Assembly (NCBI GenBank): GCA_025054715.1
Contig: JANWYH010000008.1
Coordinates: forward strand, 62,001 to 126,000
Reading direction: 5' to 3'
DNA length: 64,000 nt
DNA from: Pyrinomonadaceae bacterium
GTDB lineage: Bacteria; Acidobacteriota; Blastocatellia; Pyrinomonadales; Pyrinomonadaceae
Below are positions 7,284 to 7,631 of the stretch, piece by piece. Position numbers and translations under genes: made by a program. Under the pieces are notes generated by a model. The model had not been told where the DNA came from and ran no database searches. It worked only from the letters and a program-made list of their open reading frames with translations. Within the stretch, counting starts at the first letter, position 1; each line of letters opens with the position of its first letter.

Positions 7284-7631
7284 AGATATAACCTTGCTGA
7301 AAAGCCTTAGCAGCGAGCCATTGGTTTGAGGGTTTGTAAGCAGGACGGGAGGAGGGGTGGTAAGTGGAAGAAAGAGGCGATGGCAAGTTGCTGAGGTAGC
7401 CCTTAGCTTTCCTGTTCTTGAAGAGCCCTTTGCGATGGATTTCTTTTTGCTAACTAGTTGTTTAGATGACTGGGGTAGGAAGGCGAAAGGGTTAGTTCCT
7501 GCTGATGCAGGGGCTATGGCTGACCGAAAGCCGCCAGTCAGCATGGGTCAGTCTGAAAGGGCGGGGTAAAAATACGCTGACCTAAAGTGTGGCAACCTTG
7601 CGCACTTTAGTTAAACTAGGGGGATTAAGTT
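7284..7631 (+). ncRNA. Structured groES-groEL intergenic element (candidate ncRNA or leader)
   Basis: 348 nt with no credible gene, visibly more G-rich than the surrounding coding DNA. Directly visible elements: hairpin 7293-7299/7311-7317 (CTTGCTG with CAGCGAG); a G-tract cluster 7342-7360; hairpin 7495-7502/7507-7514 around a TGAT loop; GCTGAC 7519-7524 with GTCAGC 7537-7542; GGTCAG 7546-7551, which can pair either with CTGACC 7520-7525 or with CTGACC 7577-7582; and a 10-bp hairpin 7582-7591/7601-7610 with a 9-nt loop just before the groEL ribosome binding site (AGGGGGA, 7618-7624). I do not recognise a known RNA family; RNase P, tmRNA and SRP signatures are absent. A translated frame at 7357-7569 lacks any family resemblance and is taken as chance. 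Confidence 0.45.

Follow-up and report, generated by a model that had tools for sequence, protein, structure and literature searches.

Several features of the element reported here have counterparts in described transposons that encode TnpB, the ancestor of CRISPR-Cas12. The signature of IS607 is a GG dinucleotide at both ends and in the target (PMC6188088), and the family's reported preference is for (G)GG, without other sequence requirements in the target (PMC6188088, PMC10711439). In IS607 elements with a RAGATH-18-derived right-end guide RNA (reRNA, or omegaRNA), such as ISFba1, a TnpB of about 390 amino acids is accompanied downstream by a structured, pseudoknotted RNA that is said to be separate from tnpB, and TnpBs with a purine-rich transposon-adjacent motif (TAM) by the left end, AGGAG or GAGGG, are known (PMC11061315). 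In the IS200/IS605 family, the reRNA of ISDra2 overlaps the 3′ end of tnpB and extends to the right end, of which five bases pair with an apical loop (PMC8612924). A guide-flanking pseudoknot has been reported as conserved in TnpB reRNAs (PMC10711439). Non-autonomous, MITE-like TnpB derivatives are short gene-less copies that have both ends.

Here, we analysed a 64,000-nt stretch of a Pyrinomonadaceae genome (contig JANWYH010000008.1, positions 62,001 to 126,000; hereafter the window), in which groES and groEL are separated by 348 nt (Table 1). The initial annotation had singled out this spacer as structured and longer than usual. Its coordinates were confirmed, and the corresponding gaps measure 24, 82, 31, 29, 30 and 23 nt in the six relatives where groES was found; most of these six gaps contain a plain Shine-Dalgarno sequence, and the element is absent from them. 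The + strand of the spacer is G-rich and folds better than most shuffled sequences (z = -2.25, with 2 of 100 shuffles equally good), and the - strand folds no better than shuffles (z = +0.39). The Rfam covariance search suggested by the initial annotation matched no known RNA relevant to the spacer at strict or permissive thresholds. A second groEL lies outside the window (G000:C11:85678-87279); it is 79% identical to the window groEL and contains one in-frame TAA, which is absent from the same-genus copy of this second gene.

A DNA search of the host genome retrieved eight further copies of the element at about 67-96% identity, and a covariance model built from the genome's copies (R1) raised the total to 12 including that of the window, the last being weak and decayed; within the window, R1 has a single match. 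Each of the 12 copies is followed, no more than about 20 nt past its end, by the start codon of a co-oriented gene, and most carry an AGG-type ribosome-binding site at that end. The genes that follow, named by eye from their translations, are unrelated: groEL, a persulfide-dioxygenase/rhodanese-like gene, a cytochrome oxidase subunit, a permease, an Fe-SOD-like gene, a thioredoxin-like gene, a phosphoglycerate mutase and others. The core is about 85% identical between copies. Copies c1 and c2 (L037 and L038) match at 96% identity and have upstream flanks unrelated to each other; c4 and c6 (L040 and L042) share 95% identity confined to their 3′ 231 nt. This pattern points to recent copying, or to gene conversion from one copy to another. 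Both c11 and c12 are decayed.

The same-genus genome contains no copy, R1 retrieved nothing convincing from 194 relatives, and BLAST of the element against relatives gave only chance-level matches outside its own genome. Some sites in relatives are free of the element: coxC and coxD overlap in the same-genus genome and are about 420 nt apart in the window genome, and at the c3 locus (L039) the element replaces a permease-like gene that stands between rhodanese and metallo-hydrolase genes in the same-genus genome (L107). Such element-free sites in relatives, together with defined ends, are the marks of a transposon, the window copy itself being without a left end. A DNA similarity search of plasmids and phages gave no match, nor did strict patterns in viral and genome contigs; two relaxed pattern matches in viral sequences were due to chance.

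The likely origin of the element became apparent in the hot-spring Aquificota, where its family is common. A relaxed pattern scan of 84,980 genomes gave 18 matches, of which the covariance model upheld only one, in a Hydrogenothermaceae (Aquificota) MAG (L110; 113.7 bits), where the A:A′ helix is fully compensated. Of 293 genomes around this MAG, 74 have R1 matches, with up to at least 11 copies per genome. The full-length Aquificota elements that we read are ~1.7 kb long, carry the RNA at their 3′ end and encode an ORF of about 550-560 amino acids that scores above the cut-off for the TnpB-family models TIGR01766 and TIGR01765 and below that of NF040570 (guided TnpB). The early working idea of a cis-regulatory leader family was dropped once these elements had been found. 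The final 100-odd tnpB codons traverse the RNA region, and the frame of this tail persists, tattered, in copies c1, c5, c6 and c7 of the window genome, where we found C-terminal TnpB remnants only and no intact tnpB. The Aquificota also have short copies with a left end and the RNA but no tnpB. Two TnpBs (L165:1513-3195 and L174:1462-3111) display the motifs GIDxN, AIEN/AIEK and DKDxAGA, seemingly lack the zinc-ribbon cysteines and extend at the C terminus into a long tail, whose codons lie in the structured RNA region; their sole sequence match among solved structures is a weak one to Cas12f1 (9i8y; E 0.0027).

The initial annotation had seen no gene in the spacer. There is indeed no intact one, but the 3′ end of tnpB persists in decayed form in one of the frames. 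A protein-coding reading of the frame common to the genome's copies had been set aside, as it has no Pfam or NCBIfam match and its changes between copies show no third-codon-position excess; the frame was later explained as the tnpB tail. The lack of a third-position excess indicates that the open frame of the window copy is not under coding selection now.

The right end reads CCAGG at 45 of 48 loci. At 42 of the 48, an ORF of at least 55 amino acids starts 1-10 nt past the right end; the corresponding figure for all GG dinucleotides of this DNA is 9.7%, a generous control in which internal starts were counted. By comparison with these ends, the right-end GG of the window copy is at 7619-7620. 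Left ends read ...GGAGG/TTAAYAACAGTT... (the slash marks the border), the flanking GGAGG being the Shine-Dalgarno sequence of the host. In full-length Aquificota members, the CCAGG at the other end stands 1-9 nt ahead of a start codon. When the left-end motif is taken alone, GGAGG is found within 14 nt upstream at 12 of 22 places against a background of 1.2%, and several of the other ten places are not left ends. Borders of the form GGAGG/...CCAGG/ place GG at both ends and in the target, as in IS607 elements with a serine transposase (PMC6188088, PMC10711439), and can be explained without target duplication; the GGAGG also matches the purine-rich TAMs of ISFba1-type elements. Whereas (G)GG reportedly suffices for IS607, the presumed target here is a Shine-Dalgarno sequence before a start codon, which we did not find stated as a landing site in the literature searched, whose coverage was incomplete. 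The placement at gene starts could stem in part from selection against harmful insertions in compact genomes. Since its left end has been lost, the insertion site of the window copy cannot be exactly reconstructed.

The RNA fold was assessed by covariation. For three nested helices in 58 sequences, 298 double-change cells were counted vs 82 in shuffles, none of 500 shuffles reaching 298, in an alignment that was fitted to those helices and is thus biased towards them. Helix A:A′ has 23 different 5′ strands and at least 7 of its 8 pairs in all 57 sequences; helix B:B′ is invariant except for one compensated change (GCGCC/GGCGC in L175); helix C:C′, absent from the model, has all 6 of its pairs in 55 of 57 sequences, the C strand occurring in 11 versions. 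These three helices cross one another. P1 and the inner part of P2 are also supported (136 double-change cells vs 48, 0 of 500 shuffles) in an alignment made with MAFFT (17 sequences, ~330 nt) and not fitted to a structure. Overall, covariation strongly supports a predicted family fold that includes the three crossing helices. The initial annotation had looked to groES-groEL gaps for such a signal, which is strong across the element family; the gaps of the relatives do not contain the element. It had also noted that GGTCAG can pair with either of two CTGACC copies. Both options exist in the sequence, but only helix A covaries across the family, and the second CTGACC belongs to helix C; a switch based on the two copies is rejected, the competing pairing not being conserved.

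As in ISDra2, the last five bases of the transposon (CCAGG) pair with an apical loop, that of hairpin H1 (CTTGG/CCTGG in the Aquificota), in 48 of 58 sequences vs 10% for shuffled loops. This pairing corresponds to the guide-flanking pseudoknot of TnpB reRNAs (PMC10711439). It has been lost in most copies of the window genome, that of groEL included.

Table 1. Features of the groES-groEL region (positions in the window)
Feature	Position	Strand	Basis
groES, upstream gene	6963..7283	+	ORF of 106 aa; identity from translation
Probable TnpB element remnant comprising the 3′ tnpB tail, an reRNA-like domain and the right end, without left end or tnpB body	7284..7620	+	12 genome copies; homology to full-length Aquificota tnpB elements
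P1 5′ strand, long-range helix, pairs with 7379-7397	7304..7323	+	Covariation, 17 sequences
Decayed open frame homologous to C-terminal tail of Aquificota TnpB	7357..7569	+	Homology
P1 3′ strand	7379..7397	+	Covariation, 17 sequences
P2 5′ strand, pairs with 7473-7492; inner part best supported	7398..7417	+	Covariation
P2 3′ strand	7473..7492	+	Covariation
Most conserved RNA core	7489..7619	+	R1, 152.4 bits
Hairpin H1; loop-tail pairing of Aquificota copies lost here	7493..7516	+	Comparison with Aquificota copies
Helix A 5′ strand, pairs with 7546-7553	7518..7525	+	Covariation
Helix B 5′ strand CCGCC, pairs with 7560-7564	7531..7535	+	Invariant but for one compensated change
Helix C 5′ strand, pairs with 7576-7581	7537..7542	+	Covariation
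Helix A 3′ strand	7546..7553	+	Covariation
Helix B 3′ strand GGCGG	7560..7564	+	Pairing with CCGCC
Helix C 3′ strand	7576..7581	+	Covariation
Terminal hairpin adjoining right end	7583..7609	+	Double changes at 7 of 8 pairs
Right end CTAGG (Aquificota: CCAGG), presumed new groEL Shine-Dalgarno	7616..7620	+	End comparison
groEL, downstream gene	7632..9257	+	ORF of 541 aa; 92% identical orthologue in same genus

The family thus combines traits of several known systems. It shares with ISDra2 a structured RNA that overlaps the 3′ end of tnpB and extends to the right end, the arrangement expected of an reRNA, and differs from IS200/IS605 elements in its GG/GG borders and in the greater size of its RNA, which has three crossing helices. 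As in ISFba1-type IS607, TnpB is accompanied by a pseudoknotted, structured RNA, but the RNA here has no Rfam covariance-model match, RAGATH-18 included, and overlaps the tnpB coding sequence, and TnpB is longer. Short gene-less copies with both ends (e.g. c5, c7, c9 and L177) resemble MITE-like derivatives, from which they are distinguished by their folded reRNA-like region and their occupation of Shine-Dalgarno sites. Sequence comparison, which provides the element, its ends, its fold, its tnpB association and its placement, places the family among TnpB transposons with an reRNA; its preference for gene starts is unusual.

No partner transposase was recovered by the searches made. The elements that we read are tnpB-only, with no tnpA serine recombinase, in which they depart from IS607. 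A Y1 transposase scoring over the stand-alone-domain cut-off was absent from three of the four copy-carrying Aquificota genomes tested, in which they depart from IS200/IS605. Searches for Y1 and serine recombinase domains gave no match in the window genome, nor in the copy-rich genomes G220 and G223 (loci L161-L167, L134, L179 and L180; at least 8-11 copies per genome), and no Resolvase domain was found in G000, G220 or G223. Free-standing Resolvase domains occur in G203, G257 and G261, with the RNA not nearby.

The spacer is very probably a decayed, TnpB-less copy of a TnpB transposon, reduced to the 3′ reRNA-coding region and the right end. Its length is so variable among close relatives (348 vs 23-82 nt) because it is an insertion. 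This variability and the overlap with a decayed gene, tnpB, agree in part with two of the grounds for refutation named in the initial annotation. Because the window genome has no intact tnpB that we could find, and the groEL copy has neither left end nor tnpB body nor guide-flanking pseudoknot, this copy is most likely an inert relic whose sole present role is that of spacer and groEL ribosome-binding site. Among the functions put forward in the initial annotation, a small RNA came closest, in that the family RNA has the features of a TnpB reRNA, but the window copy looks inert. An incidental effect of the insertion on groEL translation is possible, since the native groEL Shine-Dalgarno sequence of the relatives is missing here.

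The initial annotation had also envisaged a thermosensor or a leader dedicated to groESL, refolding of which around the groEL ribosome-binding site would set the GroES:GroEL ratio. The structure, the position directly before groEL and the presumed Shine-Dalgarno sequence at the 3′ end would suit such a device, but we consider it highly improbable: the same element precedes 11 unrelated genes here and many genes in the Aquificota, groESL does without it in the six relatives, family members do not conserve the competing CTGACC pairing, and the homology is to the 3′ end of tnpB transposons. Alternatively, former TnpB right ends may have been domesticated as 5′ UTR modules regulating a gene set of this genome, as the position of all 12 copies before start codons, their well-conserved core and the lack of an intact tnpB in the window genome might suggest. 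This too seems very unlikely. The tnpB-bearing copies of the Aquificota are placed likewise, so that a host function is not needed to explain the placement; two copies are decayed; and conservation can come from recent spread or gene conversion. An IStron-like mobile intron or ribozyme, capable of splicing or cleaving itself, in place of a TnpB guide RNA would also be large, pseudoknotted, mobile and found between genes, yet it is barely plausible given a TnpB-like encoded protein, GG/GG ends as in IS607 and the fact that even permissive thresholds gave no match to Rfam ribozymes or to group I or group II introns.

A way of life for the intact family can be proposed. Movement would be IS607-like, by recombination between GG dinucleotides, with the Shine-Dalgarno sequence serving as both insertion target and TAM. 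The RNA would run on past the element, taking its guide from the 5′ end of the gene that follows, and would direct TnpB to the allele without an insertion. The displaced Shine-Dalgarno sequence would be replaced by the right end, CCAGG, such that the host gene would still be translated. We give even chances to the view that a TnpB lineage has taken the near-universal Shine-Dalgarno sequence as its target and TAM, landing between it and the start codon and rebuilding the ribosome-binding site. Any gene start would thereby become a harmless site, the guide would span the start of the occupied gene, and the lineage would have built up its copies in genomes that yielded no known partner transposase.

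An anomalous operon spacer can hence be explained as transposon debris, and leads to a large TnpB-associated RNA family, without an Rfam match, in the Aquificota and one distantly related bacterium. The occurrence of copies in genomes without either of the known TnpA types makes it testable what moves TnpB-only elements. Should the Shine-Dalgarno sequence prove to be both the target and the TAM, the family would supply a TnpB with an inbuilt gene-start motif, and compact thermophile genomes could carry many transposons with little damage to their genes.
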